Positions 4,276 through 25,615 of a stretch of DNA of 37,211 nucleotides are shown here, piece by piece (position 1 is the stretch's first letter; the number at the start of each line of letters is the position of its first letter). The stretch is taken from contig JABDJB010000064.1 of the NCBI GenBank assembly GCA_013003425.1, positions 1 to 37,211 on the forward strand. Reading direction: 5' to 3'. Under the pieces are notes generated by a model, which ran no database searches, was not told where the DNA came from, and saw only the letters and a list, made by a program, of their open reading frames with translations. This DNA comes from Gammaproteobacteria bacterium (GTDB lineage: Bacteria; Pseudomonadota; Gammaproteobacteria; Steroidobacterales; JABDKV01). Made by a program: the position numbers and the translations under genes.

Positions 4276-4309
4276 AATTGGGGTCAGACCGAGATTATTT
4301 GTAACAATC
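4276..4309 (+). repeat. REP-like repeat, family A, left copy
   Basis: The core GGGGTCAGACCGAGATTATT (4280-4299) is followed by TTGTAACAAT-like sequence that also continues in the right-hand copies. The stop codon of the transposase (4295-4297, minus strand) lies inside this repeat, so gene and repeat form one unit. Confidence 0.75.
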
Positions 4310-5002
4310 GTCGACCGGGCGCTTTCGCGGGCGCCCGGCCTTGCCCGGCCGCACTGAGCGGCCAAGCATGGCTTCAACCTGGTCCCTGAACCTGTCGTTA
4401 CCCAGTACCCGGCACGAGTTGGTTACTGTCCTGATCTGATCCAACTCGTCTGGGGATAGGCTATCGGCAAACAAACCCCGGTAAGCATGCCGCCGTTCCT
4501 CATCGGACTGACCAAGGCATTGATATACCGAGTGCGGCACGACAATGGGGTCACCTTTGCCGTTTGCGTTGCACTGGTAGCTCGACCATAGATACTCCGC
4601 AGGATGGCGCACCATCCCGGCTCTGACCGGATTCAGTTCGATATAGCGGTGACAGGTCAATAAGTAGCGGTCCGTTTGTACCAGGCTCGCCTTGTAGCGT
4701 GCCTGCCACAACGTGCCCGTCCGGTTGTAGCGCTTGTTTATCGGCTGCACATAGTGCCGCCCTATCACCTGCATCAGCAAGGGAATCGACCTTTCATTTC
4801 CTGGCGAAACCAACAGGTGCGTGTGGTTGGTCATCAGAACATACGCATGCACCGGGCAGTCGTGCTGCTGCGAGGCAGCACGGAGCACCTGCAAATAGAG
4901 TTCGTAATCTGCTGTCTCGAAGAATGTGGGCTGCCGATCGACGCCACGCTGAATAACGTGTTGAGGGATTCCGGGTATGAAATAGCGTGGCGGGCGCGGC
5001 AA
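4295..5002 (-). CDS. REP-associated tyrosine transposase (Y1_Tnp, IS200-like)
   Basis: The 235-residue protein belongs to the Y1/HUH single-strand DNA transposase superfamily, in the RAYT branch. The metal-binding HUH pair is H60 and H62 in MTNHTHLLV, and the catalytic tyrosine is expected to be Y120 in RYIELNPVRAGM. The N-terminus (MPRPPRYFIPGIPQHVIQRG) is the usual one for the family, which supports the TTG at 5002 as start; no in-frame ATG lies nearby upstream. An ATG 28 bases upstream is in another frame. The C-terminus is Arg/Lys-rich (PGKAGRPRKRP). RAYTs bind and cut REP hairpins as single strands and are thought to spread them. The gene stops within its left repeat and faces the RHS gene convergently. 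It looks intact. Confidence 0.88.
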   Translation of the reverse strand: MPRPPRYFIPGIPQHVIQRGVDRQPTFFETADYELYLQVLRAASQQHDCPVHAYVLMTNHTHLLVSPGNERSIPLLMQVIGRHYVQPINKRYNRTGTLWQARYKASLVQTDRYLLTCHRYIELNPVRAGMVRHPAEYLWSSYQCNANGKGDPIVVPHSVYQCLGQSDEERRHAYRGLFADSLSPDELDQIRTVTNSCRVLGNDRFRDQVEAMLGRSVRPGKAGRPRKRPVDDCYK

Positions 5003-19474: not shown

Positions 19475-20899
19475 GTGGATAGCAAAAAAGCCCAGCAGTT
19501 TATAAACGGAATGTGGGACGACTCGATCGTGCCGCAGCTGGTCGACTACGTCGCCATTCCCAACAAGTCGCCGCTCTTTGACCCCGACTGGGCCGAGCAT
19601 GGTTACATGGACCAGGCTGCCGACCTTGCCGAAAAATGGTGCCGCGAGCAGCCAATCAAGGGACTGCGGGTTGAAGTCGTGCGACTGCCGGGGCGTACGC
19701 CGCTGTTGTTCGCGGAAGTGCCAGGCGACAACGACGACACGGTGCTGCTGTACGGGCACCTGGACAAGCAGCCGGAATTTACTGGCTGGGAAGACGATCT
19801 TGGCCCGTGGAAGCCGGTCATCCGCGACGGCAAGCTCTACGGACGCGGGGGCGCGGACGACGGGTATGCAGTGTTTGGCTCACTCACCGCTATTCGCGCG
19901 TTGCAGGAGCAGAATATTCCGCATGCTCGCTGCGTAGTGGTCATTGAGTTCTCCGAGGAAAGCGGCAGCCCCGATCTGCCCGCCTACATCGAACATCTCG
20001 CCAATCGCATTGGCACGCCCAGCCTGGTGGTGTGCCTCGATGCCGAGTGCGGCAATTACGACCAGCTTTGGTGCACCACCACGCTGCGCGGAAATCTCGT
20101 CGGCACTTTGTCAGTCGACGTACTCACCGCAGGTGTTCACTCGGGTGGTGCCAGCGGTATCGTGCCGTCGAGCTTTCGGGTGCTACGGCAGCTGCTGACG
20201 CGCCTGGAGGACGAAAACAGCGGCGCTACGCGCGTACCGTTGCTGGAACCGGATATCCCGCAGTCGCGCATTGCAGAAGCTGCTGCCACCGCCGATGTGC
20301 TGGGCGATGGTGTTCACCAGCGCTATCCGTGGGTGGAAGGCATGCGTCCGATCAGCGAGGACCGCGTGGAACTGCTGCTGAATAACTGGTGGCGCTCAAC
20401 CTTGTGCGTCACCGGCGCCGACGGTATCCCCGAGCTGCAGCAGGCCGGCAACACTCTGCGACCGAACACCTCGGTGAAATTATCGTTCCGGCTGCCGCCT
20501 ACCGGCGACGCCACCGCGGCCGGTCAGCAGGTAAAGCAGATGCTGGAGACCGATCCGCCGTACGGCGCCCGGGTGCACTTCGAAGTGGAATCGGCGATGG
20601 AAGGCTGGAGCGCCCCGGAAATTGCCCCATGGCTGGCCGATTCGATGGCGCAGGGATCGAAAGCATTCTTTGGCGCCGACGCCATGTATATGGGCACCGG
20701 CGGCAGCATCCCGTTCATGGCCATGCTGGGCGAAAAATTCCCCGGAACGCAGTTCCTGGTAACCGGCGTACTCGGGCCGCACTCGAATGCGCACGGGCCA
20801 AACGAGTTCCTGCACATTGATACCGGCAAGAAAGTCACCTGCTGCGTCGCCCGGGTGCTGACGGATCACTTCCACCGAGCTGACCGCGCCGCCGCCTGA
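19475..20899 (+). CDS. M20-family metallopeptidase (dipeptidase/carboxypeptidase-like)
   Basis: The 474-residue protein is a two-domain di-zinc hydrolase of the M20 clan. Metal ligands and catalytic residues can be placed: H95 and D97 (YGHLDKQP), bridging D128 (RGGADDGY), general base E161 with ligand E162 (EFSEESGS), D189 (CLDAE), and the C-terminal H440 (GPHSNAHGPNE). The dimerisation lid lies between about 205 and 330 (VLTAGVHSGGASGIVPSSFR at its start). The substrate is probably a dipeptide or N-acyl amino acid, acting in the cytoplasm, since no signal peptide is seen. The start is GTG 19475 with AGGAG six bases upstream. The end is followed directly by REP-like repeats. Confidence 0.9.
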   Translation: MDSKKAQQFINGMWDDSIVPQLVDYVAIPNKSPLFDPDWAEHGYMDQAADLAEKWCREQPIKGLRVEVVRLPGRTPLLFAEVPGDNDDTVLLYGHLDKQPEFTGWEDDLGPWKPVIRDGKLYGRGGADDGYAVFGSLTAIRALQEQNIPHARCVVVIEFSEESGSPDLPAYIEHLANRIGTPSLVVCLDAECGNYDQLWCTTTLRGNLVGTLSVDVLTAGVHSGGASGIVPSSFRVLRQLLTRLEDENSGATRVPLLEPDIPQSRIAEAAATADVLGDGVHQRYPWVEGMRPISEDRVELLLNNWWRSTLCVTGADGIPELQQAGNTLRPNTSVKLSFRLPPTGDATAAGQQVKQMLETDPPYGARVHFEVESAMEGWSAPEIAPWLADSMAQGSKAFFGADAMYMGTGGSIPFMAMLGEKFPGTQFLVTGVLGPHSNAHGPNEFLHIDTGKKVTCCVARVLTDHFHRADRAAA

Positions 20900-20903
20900 A
20901 AGC

Positions 20904-20973
20904 AAAGGGGTCAAGTCTACGCATTACGCATTTTCCGGCAAAGGGGTCAAGTCTACGCATTACGCATTTTCCG
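20904..20973 (+). repeat. Solo REP-like repeat, family B, tandem pair (period 36)
   Basis: Two copies with core GGGGTCAAGTCTACGCATTA start at 20907 and 20943. The sequence is identical to the terminal repeats of RAYT unit 2 at 23148 and 24216 for at least 27 bases. It lies directly downstream of the M20 peptidase gene and has no transposase of its own here, so it is a non-autonomous copy pair. Confidence 0.85.
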
Positions 20974-21050
20974 AAATGCCCGATGCGGAAGGGCAAAAAT
21001 TCTCACATTAAACATTTTTTTCACCGGCGCCCGGCGCGGTTACAGAACAA

Positions 21051-21068
21051 AAATGCGGACTTGACCCC
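21051..21068 (-). repeat. Degenerate inverted copy of repeat family B
   Basis: AAATGCGGACTTGACCCC is the reverse complement of the family B core with its internal TACGCATTACG part lost. It faces the tandem pair at 20904, so the stretch 20904-21068 has the same head-to-head layout as RAYT unit 2 but no gene inside. Confidence 0.55.
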
Positions 21069-21080
21069 CATGACTCACAA

Positions 21081-21203
21081 CCGCTGCTTAAGCGCGTTCT
21101 GTCATGAGTCCAGGTCGGAATGACTCGCCGTTAACGCCCCCGATATGCCTGCCTCCCCGGCCTGTCACGCACTTTCAGTCCGGTCTTTATCTTTCCTATC
21201 CGC
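21081..21203 (+). repeat. Diverged direct repeat, copy 1
   Basis: This 123-base stretch matches 22243-22384 at roughly nine of ten aligned positions, with one insertion of about 17-19 bases in the other copy. Shared blocks include GGTCGGAATGACT, CCCCGGCCTGTCACG, ACTTTCAGT and GTCTTTATCTTTCCTATCCG. It is not part of any convincing gene. Confidence 0.8.
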
Positions 21204-21594
21204 CTCAGAGCACTGTTCTTTCGGCCGCCCGGTCCGGCCGGAGCGCTTGCCCTGTTCGGTGCCGGGCACAATCGCCTTTGGAGAACGAAATGACCTTTTC
21301 GTTGTTCGAGACGGGTGCCGCCGCCTTTGTCGAGCAGCCGGAATACATCGAAACGTGTCGAAGACGGTTGCCGCCGGTTTGGAGGTGGTCTAGATCGGGC
21401 TTCCAGATGCGATCATGCAAAGCATCCGAAACGGGCACTACCCGCATGGGTTTCTGGTGGCAACGCAAAGGACATAAAATTGTGCAGCGCAAATTGAAAA
21501 CGACCAGAAACACAACTAGCTTTCTGAGTACACCGCGAAGTGAATATGCGGACTCCCCTACACTCGATCTAATCTCTATTTTGAAGGAAAGGAA
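21204..21594. other. Non-coding leader region before the low-GC gene
   Basis: I see no convincing gene, tRNA or hairpin terminator here. GC falls toward the right end (about 45 percent in a line I counted). The only clear signal is the purine-rich AAGGAAAGGAA just before the ATG at 21595, which serves as ribosome binding site. An open frame crossing it is argued against below. Confidence 0.5.
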
Positions 21595-22008
21595 ATGAAA
21601 AATACATTAATCAAAATGGCGGCGACGTCTTTGCTTTTAGTTTTTTCGCAGAGTGTTCTTGCATGGATTGATCCAGCCGCGCCGTCTGCTTCGCACCATC
21701 TGGAAGACGCCGCTACGGCTATTCATGACTATCTACACGATGAATATAGCTCTTCATTCGGTGCTCACGGTATGGAAGAGGCAAGCGATGCCTTGCACAG
21801 TATTTTACACGACTGGTCGCATGGTGAAGCGACTGAAGCGGAGGTGGTTGTTGCCAAGGACGCGTTAAAAGAAGCATGGAACAATTTCCGTCAGACCATT
21901 AACCCTGCTGGAATATTGAACAGCGGAGACACGCAACTCGACGATATGTATCAGGAGGTTAAGAGTGCATATAAAGAGGTTCGCTGGCTGCTCCGCAAAG
22001 CGAAGTAA
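21595..22008 (+). CDS. Small low-GC periplasmic helical protein, hypothetical
   Basis: The 137-residue protein has a clear Sec signal peptide (MKNTLIKMAATSLLLVFSQSVLA, cleavage before WIDP). The mature part is predicted helical and rich in His, Asp and Glu (HHLEDAATAIHDYLHDEY, HSILHDWSHG), which might bind metal. The spacing resembles a four-helix bundle, but I cannot name a family. The first 60 bases are about 37 percent GC, far below the core genes of this window. The gene lies between the two direct-repeat copies at 21081 and 22243. It has a strong ribosome site and an intact frame. Recent transfer is likely. Confidence 0.75.
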   Translation: MKNTLIKMAATSLLLVFSQSVLAWIDPAAPSASHHLEDAATAIHDYLHDEYSSSFGAHGMEEASDALHSILHDWSHGEATEAEVVVAKDALKEAWNNFRQTINPAGILNSGDTQLDDMYQEVKSAYKEVRWLLRKAK

Positions 22009-22242
22009 AGTTCAGCGGGCACCGCGCTGGCAAAATTCAGCGAGGGCGTGACGACAAAAGCTGGCGTGATCGCCAATCGACATCGTCGCGCTCTCGCGCC
22101 AGGAAAACCCAATCTCCGGGTGTAAAATGACGTGCAAAATGACTTTGTCGTTTTTGTCCGAGAGCCTGACGGGAAATATCGGTGACAATTAGAGATACAA
22201 CATGCACGTGCCAATTTACGGCGCCGGAGCTCCGCCACACAG
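22009..22242. other. Intergenic stretch without a recognised gene
   Basis: No supported gene or RNA is seen. The start (TTCAGCGGGC / TTCAGCGAGG, around 22011 and 22035) carries two similar decamers. Frames open on the minus strand here have no homology or ribosome site that I can see. Confidence 0.4.
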
Positions 22243-22384
22243 CCGGTGCTTAAGTGCGTTCTGTTATGAGTCGAGGTCGGAATGACTCCCCGTAAACGCC
22301 CCCCGATATGCCCGACCAACTCCCTGGTTGCGTCACCCCGGCCTGTCACGTACTTTCAGTAGAGTCTTTATCTTTCCTATCCGC
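22243..22384 (+). repeat. Diverged direct repeat, copy 2
   Basis: This is the second copy of the 21081-21203 element in the same orientation, about 1160 bases downstream. Relative to copy 1 it carries an extra 17-19 bases (around GACCAACTCCCTGGTTG) after the shared GATATGCC. It ends about 155 bases before the CIA30-domain gene. Confidence 0.8.
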
Positions 22385-22538
22385 GTGTCGTTCATGATCT
22401 TGTGGAGTGTTTTGTCTTTTTCTGGGTGTTTGTGCTCGGTATGCCAGTTGGCCCGGCACGCCGACCTGTTGCGGCCTGGACTAGTCTCAAAACAACCCCG
22501 GCTCGCCCACTAAACAAATATCCGTAACCACACCTGTC

Positions 22539-23147
22539 ATGAATCGAGCTAACATTCTGTCGCCTCTGTTGCTGTTTATTGGATACCTGCTGATGACTCT
22601 TTCCAGCCTGCCTGCAAACACATCTGCTTCTACCCGCGAGGGAGAGCGCCTGCTGACTGATTTCACAGCCGGAACGTCTGACTTCGGCTGGTATGTGGTC
22701 AATGACAATGTCATGGGGGGGCGCAGCGACGGCGGCTTCGAACTGGAACCGGAGCAGCTACTTTTTACCGGCACGACGAATACCGATGGTGGCGGATTCA
22801 GTTCGATACGCACCGCGCCAATGCAGCTGGATCTGTCGAGCCAGGCCGGCATACGGCTGGTCGTGAAAGGTGATGGTCGCCGCTATACCTGGCGGCTGAC
22901 CAGTGACGCCCGCTGGCGCGGCAGACTGATCAGTTACTGGGCGGATTTCGAAACGCGTAATGGCGAATGGACTACAGCCAACCTGCCCTTCTCCAGCTTT
23001 ATCCCCAGATCCCGCGGCTATCAGCTCGATGGGCCAGCGCTGGATGCCGGACAGATTACCGGGATGGGTCTGATGATCTACGACAAGCAGGATGGCCCTT
23101 TTCATTTGCAGCTGGCCAATGTCAGCGCTTATTCCAAAGAAAAATAA
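22539..23147 (+). CDS. CIA30-domain (complex I intermediate-associated protein 30-like) exported protein
   Basis: The 202-residue protein has an N-terminal hydrophobic segment (residues 7-27, LSPLLLFIGYLLMTLSSLPA) that acts as signal or anchor. A CIA30 beta-sandwich follows, recognised by WYVVNDNVMGGRSDGGF (residues about 50-67), GFSSIRTAPM and the C-terminal DAGQITGMGLMIYDKQDGPFHLQL. In mitochondria CIA30 is an assembly factor for complex I. Bacterial homologues resemble carbohydrate-binding folds and have no settled role, and an exported copy like this one is unlikely to act on complex I. Its stop codon touches the left repeat of RAYT unit 2, so that insertion came to rest immediately behind the gene. 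Confidence 0.85.
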   Translation: MNRANILSPLLLFIGYLLMTLSSLPANTSASTREGERLLTDFTAGTSDFGWYVVNDNVMGGRSDGGFELEPEQLLFTGTTNTDGGGFSSIRTAPMQLDLSSQAGIRLVVKGDGRRYTWRLTSDARWRGRLISYWADFETRNGEWTTANLPFSSFIPRSRGYQLDGPALDAGQITGMGLMIYDKQDGPFHLQLANVSAYSKEK

Positions 23148-23174
23148 GGGGTCAAGTCTACGCATTACGCATTT
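23148..23174 (+). repeat. Family B repeat, left end of RAYT unit 2
   Basis: Begins GGGGTCAAGTCTACGCATTA and is identical to the solo copies at 20907 and 20943 over 27 bases. It contains the transposase stop codon (23158-23160, TAG on the minus strand). Confidence 0.85.
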
Positions 23175-24126
23175 TCGAGAGGCGGGTGCGTAGCCAGGCC
23201 AGTTCGCCGGCCACGGCAGGGTCTCGCGTCGCCCTGTCGCGACAGCGGCTGATGGCAGAGGCGACGGTGGTGTAGGAGGTGGGGCCGAAGGTGTCGGCGA
23301 GGTCTCGCAACGTCAGTCCGCCATATTGTTGTCCGAGCAGCATAGCGAGAGCCCGTTGCTCACGTGCATGGCGGTCAGCGGCTTCGAGAATCTCCTGTCG
23401 CGATCGGGCGGAGCGGGCGCAAACAACAGCGATAATTTCGTCCAGCGATAACATTGTGGTTGATAACTTTGACTGGGGAATTTCATAGTCAGACGACCCA
23501 CGTCTTTGCGAAGCGGAGACGAACTCTTTGGAACCCAGCACGGCGGCGTACCGGCTGGAGGCAGCCGACAGTAGCAGGTCATCGTCGTGTTCATCTGTTT
23601 GTCCCTCAACAAAGGCGCAATAGCCCCCGGCTGATTGGAACGGAGCGATCGTGTGACGCAGGTGCAACCAGCCCGGTACCGGGCGCAACCCGGCAAAGCA
23701 GCGATAGCTGGACCATGGATAGTCAACCAACCGGTCGCACAGGCCGGCCGCAAGCGGGTTGCGGTGCACGTAACGGCTGACACACAGCAAATAACTGTCC
23801 TGTTCGATTAGCTGCGCCTTATAGCGTCCGCGGAATAACGGGCCGTCGGTTCTCAGGTGACGGTTGTGTCGTTGTGCGTAAACACTGTCGAGATGTTGCA
23901 TCGCCCTACCGAGGTTGGCGAGCCTGGTTTGCACGAGCAGATGGTAGTGATTACCCATTAAGCAGTAGGCGTGGCAGCACACCCGGTATCTGTCATGCAG
24001 GTCACTAAGCAAGTCGAGGAATTGCTGACGCAGGTAATCGTCAGGAAAAACCTGGCACCGCCCGGCACCACGATTCATAACGTGATACCAGGCGCCGGGG
24101 TATTCGATTCGCAGTGGGCGCGCCAT
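23158..24126 (-). CDS. REP-associated tyrosine transposase with C-terminal DnaA-like helix-turn-helix
   Basis: The 322-residue protein is a Y1 transposase of the longer RAYT class starting MARPLRIEYPGAWYHVMNRG. The HUH histidines are H60 and H62 (MGNHYHLLV), and the catalytic tyrosine is expected to be Y119 (RYVHRNPLAAGL). The C-terminal 110 residues hold a domain resembling DnaA domain IV (LTLRDLADTFG ... YTTVASAISRCR), known from this class and presumably used for repeat recognition. The ATG at 24126 was chosen because AAAGGA precedes it by seven bases; a TTG two codons upstream is possible. It differs clearly from the 235-residue RAYT at 4295, so two separate systems coexist. The gene is intact. 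Confidence 0.9.
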   Translation of the reverse strand: MARPLRIEYPGAWYHVMNRGAGRCQVFPDDYLRQQFLDLLSDLHDRYRVCCHAYCLMGNHYHLLVQTRLANLGRAMQHLDSVYAQRHNRHLRTDGPLFRGRYKAQLIEQDSYLLCVSRYVHRNPLAAGLCDRLVDYPWSSYRCFAGLRPVPGWLHLRHTIAPFQSAGGYCAFVEGQTDEHDDDLLLSAASSRYAAVLGSKEFVSASQRRGSSDYEIPQSKLSTTMLSLDEIIAVVCARSARSRQEILEAADRHAREQRALAMLLGQQYGGLTLRDLADTFGPTSYTTVASAISRCRDRATRDPAVAGELAWLRTRLSKMRNA

Positions 24127-24215
24127 CGACAAGTCCTTTTATCGAACTGACTTGGACTAAATGATGATGCGTGCTACCGAGGTGGGCGAGTCCGAAAACT
24201 GGTACTCAGTTCGAT

Positions 24216-24242
24216 AAATGCGTAATGCGTAGACTTGACCCC
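24216..24242 (-). repeat. Family B repeat, right end of RAYT unit 2
   Basis: Exact reverse complement of 23148-23174. It lies about 90 bases upstream of the transposase start codon and could also contain or overlap its promoter. Confidence 0.85.
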
Positions 24243-24292
24243 TATTCTTGTAGGCCCGCCGCCAAGTCCGCCGCCAAATCTGCTGCAAGCAG

Positions 24293-24315
24293 TCGCGGCT
24301 GGAAGCCGCTCCCAC
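24293..24315. repeat. Palindromic REP of the GCGGCTGGAAGCCGC type
   Basis: GCGGCT (24295-24300) and AGCCGC (24304-24309) form a 6-bp GC stem around GGA, followed by TCCCAC. This resembles the GTGGGAGCGGCTTCCAGCCGCGA elements known from many gammaproteobacteria such as Pseudomonas. It sits immediately after the stop of the DUF885-like gene and could stabilise or end that transcript. Confidence 0.65.
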
Positions 24316-24316
24316 G

Positions 24317-25615
24317 TTAGGGTTGCAGCGTCGAAGCGCTGACCGGCGTCGAGATAACCTTTTCGAATGCAGCCCAGCGCGTCTCCAGACCACGCCCGGC
24401 GCCTTCGACATACTCGCGCACGATGTCCTTGCCGAGGTTGTAGTTGATCACATAGGCGCGGTACTTCTCGATGAACTTCAGCCGCTGTTCGGCACGTTCC
24501 TGCGACATCAACGCATAGTCCTGCAGCCACTGCACCGCAGCAGCGGCGTCGATGTCACCATCCAGATAGCGCCGGGCAGCCTCGTTACCGGCATAGTTCA
24601 GGCGACTGACCAGTTCATCGACCCGGTAGTATTCTTCAACCCGGCTGGCATCCAGCCCGGCCAGCGGGAACAGCACATTGCGCTCGAACTGCTGCCGCTC
24701 CTGCCCGGGAAACGCCATGTTGATGCCGTAATTAGCGCTACCTTCGGCAATCAGGCTCATCGGGCTGAACAGTGCATACACCGAGTACTCGACCCAGCCG
24801 CGCTTGTCGACCAGCTCACGTTCCAGCAGCGTGTTGAATACGTGATGCCCGGGATAACCCTCATGACAGGCCAGGTCGATGGCGCGGTCAATAAATATGG
24901 GCAGGTCGGTATTGAGCTGGATCAGGCTGTAGGCATCGCCCTGGAACCAGTTGTAGCCACTCCACGGTTTGTCGTTTACATACTCCACGACAAAGCGCTC
25001 GCCTTCGGGCAGCGGTATGCGGGCAACGGTGCGGCGACGACATTCATCAATTGCGGCAGCAAAAACCGTGTCCAGCTTTTCCGTTGGAATGACAAAATCC
25101 TGGCGAAACGCGTCCAGGCGCTGCGACAGCGCGCCGCCACCAGGCAGCAAAGCGTCCAGTTCACGGTTCAGCGCAATAAAGTGGCTGGCCTCGTGTCGTG
25201 GTGCGCGTGCGTCGTATAACAGCCTTGCTTCCTGGTCGAAACTGAACTGCTTGCCGCGCAACATGTCGGCCCGCGTCTGCACTGCCGTGAGCTGCTTCAT
25301 CAGCAGTGCGCGCCGTTGCGCTACCAGTGGCGTATCACGACCCAGGTCTCCGGCATTGATCGTGCTGCGCAGCAGTCCGGATTCAATTGCGATTGCATCG
25401 AGCGACAGCTCATCGCGTTCGGCAGCTTTGCGCCATTGCTCCGGTCCATGGTAAGCATCAACGAAATCCGCATCATGCCGACCCAATGCCAGCACCAGCC
25501 GTACGTAAGCTTCAGCCTGCGCATTGAGGTCGCGCGGCGTCACGGCAGGTGTGGTTGTGCAGGCACAAAGCAGTACTGCAGCCACCGTGGCGGCTGCCCC
25601 GAGCTTGGAAAGCAT
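24317..25615 (-). CDS. DUF885-like metallopeptidase lipoprotein
   Basis: The 432-residue protein has a lipoprotein-like signal (MLSKLGAAATVAAVLLCAC, Cys19). It is mostly helical and carries HEGYPGHH at 251-258 with a following glutamate in AEGSANYG (E291), the zinc-site layout of DUF885 proteins (gluzincin-like peptidases). A second HExxH-like string (HEASH, 141-145) is also present but lacks a known third ligand. Length is shorter than typical DUF885 proteins (550-600). It is likely periplasmic and lipid-anchored; the substrate is unknown. Start ATG 25615 is preceded by GAGGG. The NERD gene ends 30 bases upstream, so the two are probably one transcript. Confidence 0.75.
   Translation of the reverse strand: MLSKLGAAATVAAVLLCACTTTPAVTPRDLNAQAEAYVRLVLALGRHDADFVDAYHGPEQWRKAAERDELSLDAIAIESGLLRSTINAGDLGRDTPLVAQRRALLMKQLTAVQTRADMLRGKQFSFDQEARLLYDARAPRHEASHFIALNRELDALLPGGGALSQRLDAFRQDFVIPTEKLDTVFAAAIDECRRRTVARIPLPEGERFVVEYVNDKPWSGYNWFQGDAYSLIQLNTDLPIFIDRAIDLACHEGYPGHHVFNTLLERELVDKRGWVEYSVYALFSPMSLIAEGSANYGINMAFPGQERQQFERNVLFPLAGLDASRVEEYYRVDELVSRLNYAGNEAARRYLDGDIDAAAAVQWLQDYALMSQERAEQRLKFIEKYRAYVINYNLGKDIVREYVEGAGRGLETRWAAFEKVISTPVSASTLQP

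Follow-up and report, generated by a model that had tools for sequence, protein, structure and literature searches.

Diverged direct repeats around an orphan gene in a species-specific insert may be the remnant of a local duplication

Results

The window, that is, the whole 37,211-nt stretch of DNA that we analysed, contains a segment of ~3.4 kb (20900–24316) between an M20 peptidase gene (19475–20899) and a converging gene (24317–25615). The converging gene has no Pfam or NCBIfam match, and we take it, from its sequence, to be DUF885-like. The two flanking genes lie ~10 bp apart in the related genomes G003 and G004, ~90 bp apart in G035 and ~280 bp apart, with other sequence between them, in G001. 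In these four genomes the junction is on a single contig; the G002 contig stops just beyond the M20 gene. Because the flanking genes are close in the relatives, the 3.4 kb between them is an insert in the species of the window. The four genomes lack the whole segment, including both direct repeats and the orphan gene described below; therefore, the repeats came with the insert or after it.

The outer edges of the insert bear inverted REP-like units. At the left edge, sequence comparison identified a REP-like unit (GGGGTCAAGTCTACGCATTACGCATTTTC; 20902–20937, plus strand), followed by a second unit with a degenerate inverted partner (21046–21070). This doublet (20938–21070) forms a REPIN-like hairpin upon DNA folding, with a z of −3.63 for 20935–21075, and the identical REP sequence also folds into strong hairpins elsewhere in the same genome, on the contigs C103 and C93. 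Contig C103 (L103 1545–1813) carries, beside a REPIN, two copies of an 84-nt stretch that includes a terminator-like hairpin; the copies are 185 nt apart. On C93 (L104 1914–3121), the 3′ end of a tRNA-Gly gene is repeated as a 46-nt copy 1133 nt downstream of the gene, and a REPIN lies in between. This arrangement resembles the two ends of a small element that has inserted at the tRNA gene.

The right part of the insert (23148–24245) holds a RAYT-like Y1 transposase gene (23158–24132, minus strand) with inverted REP-like units on both sides, at 23149 (plus strand) and 24241 (minus strand). Its product scores above the Pfam cut-off for Y1_Tnp (PF01797) and reaches 65.3 bits with the NCBIfam RAYT model NF047646, the cut-off of which is 80. 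The C-terminal region of this protein has some likeness to the DnaA DNA-binding domain (Bac_DnaA_C, E = 7.6e-5, below the Pfam cut-off). A second RAYT-like gene (4295–5002, in segment 4263–5155) is found elsewhere in the window; it has its own, different flanking repeats of the GGTCTGACCCC type and directly follows a long ORF, named by eye as RHS/YD-repeat-like.

Two further components lie to the left of the RAYT-like gene. The first is a degraded 3′ end of a gene for an AbgT-family transporter (22385–22485, plus strand), recognised by its DNA identity to AbgT genes. It corresponds to the last ~30 codons, is frameshifted, shares 77% DNA identity over 81 nt with the AbgT gene of G022 and scores above all 200 shuffles for 11 out of 11 AbgT genes. 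The G022 gene, from another family, is nearer to the remnant than the intact AbgT gene of the same genome as the window (G000:C29:21356–22897; 72%). In phage and plasmid records, matches were to this remnant only, in one plasmid. The second component is a CIA30-domain gene for a probable exported protein (22539–23147, plus strand; Pfam PF08547, E = 2.7e-40), the closest relatives of which sit in other families of the order and are 60–66% identical. Its own genus offers only a 40% identical relative, in G002. This distribution would be consistent with either horizontal gain or loss in sister lineages. The insert is a patchwork of foreign DNA, present only in this species among the relatives compared.

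Inside the insert, at least 176 nt from its edges, we delimited two direct repeats by pairwise comparison. Copy 1 (21076–21203, plus strand) is 128 nt long and copy 2 (22238–22384, plus strand) is 147 nt long. Over the 128 aligned bases, 114 are identical (89.1%), the differences being seven transitions and seven transversions, and the longest identical run is 21 nt. The alignment has one 18-nt and one 1-nt gap, copy 2 being longer by CGACCAACTCCCTGGTTG (18 nt) and one C. The 150 nt beyond either repeat edge score no higher than shuffled sequence; the similarity thus ends sharply on both sides. An earlier note on this DNA had described non-coding repeats of the same orientation and ~90% identity around a low-GC gene for an exported protein, and our comparison confirms that description. 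The repeats start ~5 nt further upstream than stated there and measure 128 and 147 nt rather than 123 and 142.

The gene between the repeats (21595–22008, plus strand) would encode a small, mostly helical and probably exported protein of 137 residues. It is separated from copy 1 by a 391-nt stretch (21204–21594) with no match in relatives or Pfam, and from copy 2 by a 229-nt stretch (22009–22237) for which no match was found. Its GC content is 0.478 (GC3 0.486), compared with 0.56–0.64 for five other genes. Shuffling the region gives an ORF of this length in 3.4% of cases, so that length is only modest evidence of a real gene; the purine-rich AAGGAAAGGAA ahead of the ATG and a start that by eye resembles a signal peptide add to the case. 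Searches of 59 near relatives, 396 genomes of the order and 369 of the class gave no relative of the protein, nor did peptide patterns in GTDB genomes and viral contigs or searches of phage and plasmid records. The single-sequence structure model has poor confidence (pLDDT 58), and a Foldseek search with it returned nothing below E = 0.24 and no informative fold. Weak matches to SopD (E 0.006–0.008) fall far below curated cut-offs and were set aside.

We next consider what the repeats are. When copy 1 was searched against the whole assembly, a fragmented draft of 3.26 Mb in 115 contigs that is 95.5% complete, copy 2 was the sole match, and its E-value of 3.5e-31 excludes a chance likeness of the two. 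This genome-wide search, which the earlier note had suggested, thus revealed no further occurrence, and a two-sequence profile found no third copy in the assembly. There was also no copy in 396 genomes of the order, apart from one partial resemblance of 47 nt with 79% identity (G003 C2:11443; E = 8e-4 in the 396-genome search and 0.014 with the two-copy model), which we judged to be chance because a control pattern matched relatives about equally often. A 21-nt match in G138 was no better than chance level. A blastn search of phage and plasmid records gave no match to the repeat.

Both copies lie upstream of, and on the same strand as, genes with probably exported products, as the earlier note had stated. 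This placement favours the idea that a regulatory RNA or 5′ leader was duplicated and would govern the two genes. However, copy 1 is 391 nt and copy 2 only 154 nt from the respective start codon, the AbgT remnant separates copy 2 from the CIA30 gene, and the loci of the CIA30 relatives (L009–L017) contain no copy. Rfam returned no family over the repeat region even with E allowed up to 1. Folding of both copies on both strands gave z values of −0.42 to +1.43 relative to shuffles, with no excess stability and no hairpin, the two sequences being too few for covariation, and promoter and terminator scans of the region stayed at chance level. Taken together with the lack of further occurrences in the genome and the order, this leaves the proposal of an RNA or leader unsupported, and we regard it as very improbable.

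The repeats could instead be the ends or attachment sites of a non-autonomous mobile element or gene cassette, a reading that suits direct repeats around a single gene that has an unusual composition and for which no relatives were found. An element of this kind is improbable in our view, given that no other copies were found in the genome or in the 396 genomes of the order and that exact patterns, which diverged copies may escape, had no match in GTDB genomes or viral contigs. Moreover, the repeats lack the marks of such units. No attC core motif (RYYYAAC or GTTRRRY) lies within 300 nt around either copy on either strand, which sets the repeats apart from integron gene cassettes with attC cores in a foldable site. 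The best match between ends is 8/12 for copy 1, where shuffles mostly give 7–8, and 7/12 for copy 2, and there is no target-site duplication, the flanks of the repeats being unlike each other; terminal inverted repeats and target-site duplication, by which MITEs and insertion sequences are recognised, are thus both missing. Nor do the repeats consist of two inverted REPs in a hairpin, as a REPIN does, although the adjoining 20935–21075 folds in this way. The earlier idea that they are the ends of a cassette accordingly finds no support. That they are paired sites of an undescribed small cassette with the orphan exported protein, its recombinase supplied from elsewhere, we consider exceedingly improbable.

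The edges of the repeats are informative. Copy 1 starts 6 nt past the REPIN-like doublet, and the sequence on that side of copy 2 is unrelated. Copy 2 stops a few bases from the start of the AbgT homology, and the sequence on that side of copy 1 is unrelated. We also compared the repeats with 11 AbgT genes, and neither copy was consistently above shuffles (best p = 0.02 in 22 tests), so that the repeat was not accepted as part of an AbgT gene. The trimming of a longer duplication predicts a foreign junction at each edge in exactly one of the copies, and both observed edges fit this prediction.

The explanation that we favour, with about an even chance of being correct, is an old local tandem duplication within the insert that was later trimmed at both ends, so that the repeats are the overlap still left of it. 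A unit of ~1.16 kb would have been duplicated head to tail, in the order [22009–22237-like]-[repeat]-[21204–21594-like]-[orphan gene]. The REP/REPIN cluster, which now ends just before copy 1, would then have taken the place of the first unit's left end, and the second unit would have lost its right part when the block of AbgT remnant and CIA30 gene became attached where copy 2 ends. Only the segment between the two cuts would have stayed doubled, with 11% divergence and the gain or loss of 18 nt to follow, and it would have no function of its own. We infer that the original unit was larger and that events followed this order; the repeats, their limitation to two copies, the insert, its neighbours and the foreign junction at each outer repeat edge are observed. 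A duplication cut by these two blocks would explain the edges without further assumptions on the repeat, a proposal on which our confidence is evenly balanced. It is also in line with the presence of two copies only in the assembly and with the lack of any indication that the repeats are a mobile unit or a structured RNA.

Further support for a duplication comes from contig C29 (L101 2128–2417), where the 3′ end of the intact AbgT gene occurs twice (64 nt, 89% identity, 238 nt apart) around a REP pair of the GGAGCGGCT type, that is, as another local duplication at a REP site. On the other hand, no second copy of the orphan gene or of the adjoining stretches survives, even in part, and the larger duplicated unit is therefore not seen directly; duplication of a 130-nt segment alone could give the identical picture. 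No relative with an intermediate state of the locus was found, and the fragmentation of the draft assembly also counts against the favoured reading.

A duplication could also have arisen during insertion, when the gene segment was joined into a site with one repeat, leaving one copy on each side. We see this as the main alternative, rather unlikely overall. Either an incoming molecule might have brought its own diverged version of the repeat and recombined with the site, or repair synthesis might have duplicated the site. Repeat-gene-repeat is the expected product of such an event, and the low GC of the orphan gene and its absence elsewhere fit foreign DNA. The 64-nt duplication on C29 and the partial tRNA-Gly duplicate on C93 are cases of an insert plus a duplication in the same genome. 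However, no relative has an empty site with a single copy, the repeat itself being missing there, and duplication upon insertion alone leaves unexplained why the outer edges fall at the REP cluster and at the AbgT junction. The earlier note had suggested looking in relatives for one copy with no gene, and had considered that recombination could also delete the gene. The gene is indeed missing in G001, G003, G004 and G035, but so are both repeats, and no such deletion is seen in these genomes. Of the origins proposed there, a trace of recombination is the one that survives.

Discussion

The repeat pair looks like an ordinary scar of genome plasticity and not like a new regulatory RNA or gene cassette. 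The locus is a readable case of how an intergenic space at a REP/RAYT site gathers orphan genes, gene fragments and local duplications, and its significance beyond the locus is small. A cassette, if real, would be a new route of gene gain; the evidence runs against it.

Short variable segments between conserved neighbours have been described in intergenic regions and largely attributed to illegitimate recombination; 10–18% of the small segments are flanked by repeats, and 66–94% of those repeats are under 30 nt (Genome Biol. 2010;11:R45, PMC2884548). The locus resembles these segments in being a short intergenic insert with conserved neighbours and direct repeats. Segment 20900–24316 occurs in one genome, and between conserved flanks it is missing or different in G001, G003, G004 and G035, a comparison that is made here between species and in the cited study between strains. 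Unlike in the described segments, the repeats are 128–147 nt long and lie inside the insert rather than at its base, where repeats are an optional feature.

The second known system consists of REPINs and REP-associated tyrosine transposases (PLoS Genet. 2011;7:e1002132, PMC3116915). The direct repeats differ from REPINs in that they share no REP sequence and form no hairpin, and only their left edge touches the REP doublet. The insert as a whole, in contrast, contains parts like those of REPIN/RAYT systems: an inverted REP doublet resembling a REPIN, and a RAYT-like gene flanked by REP units.
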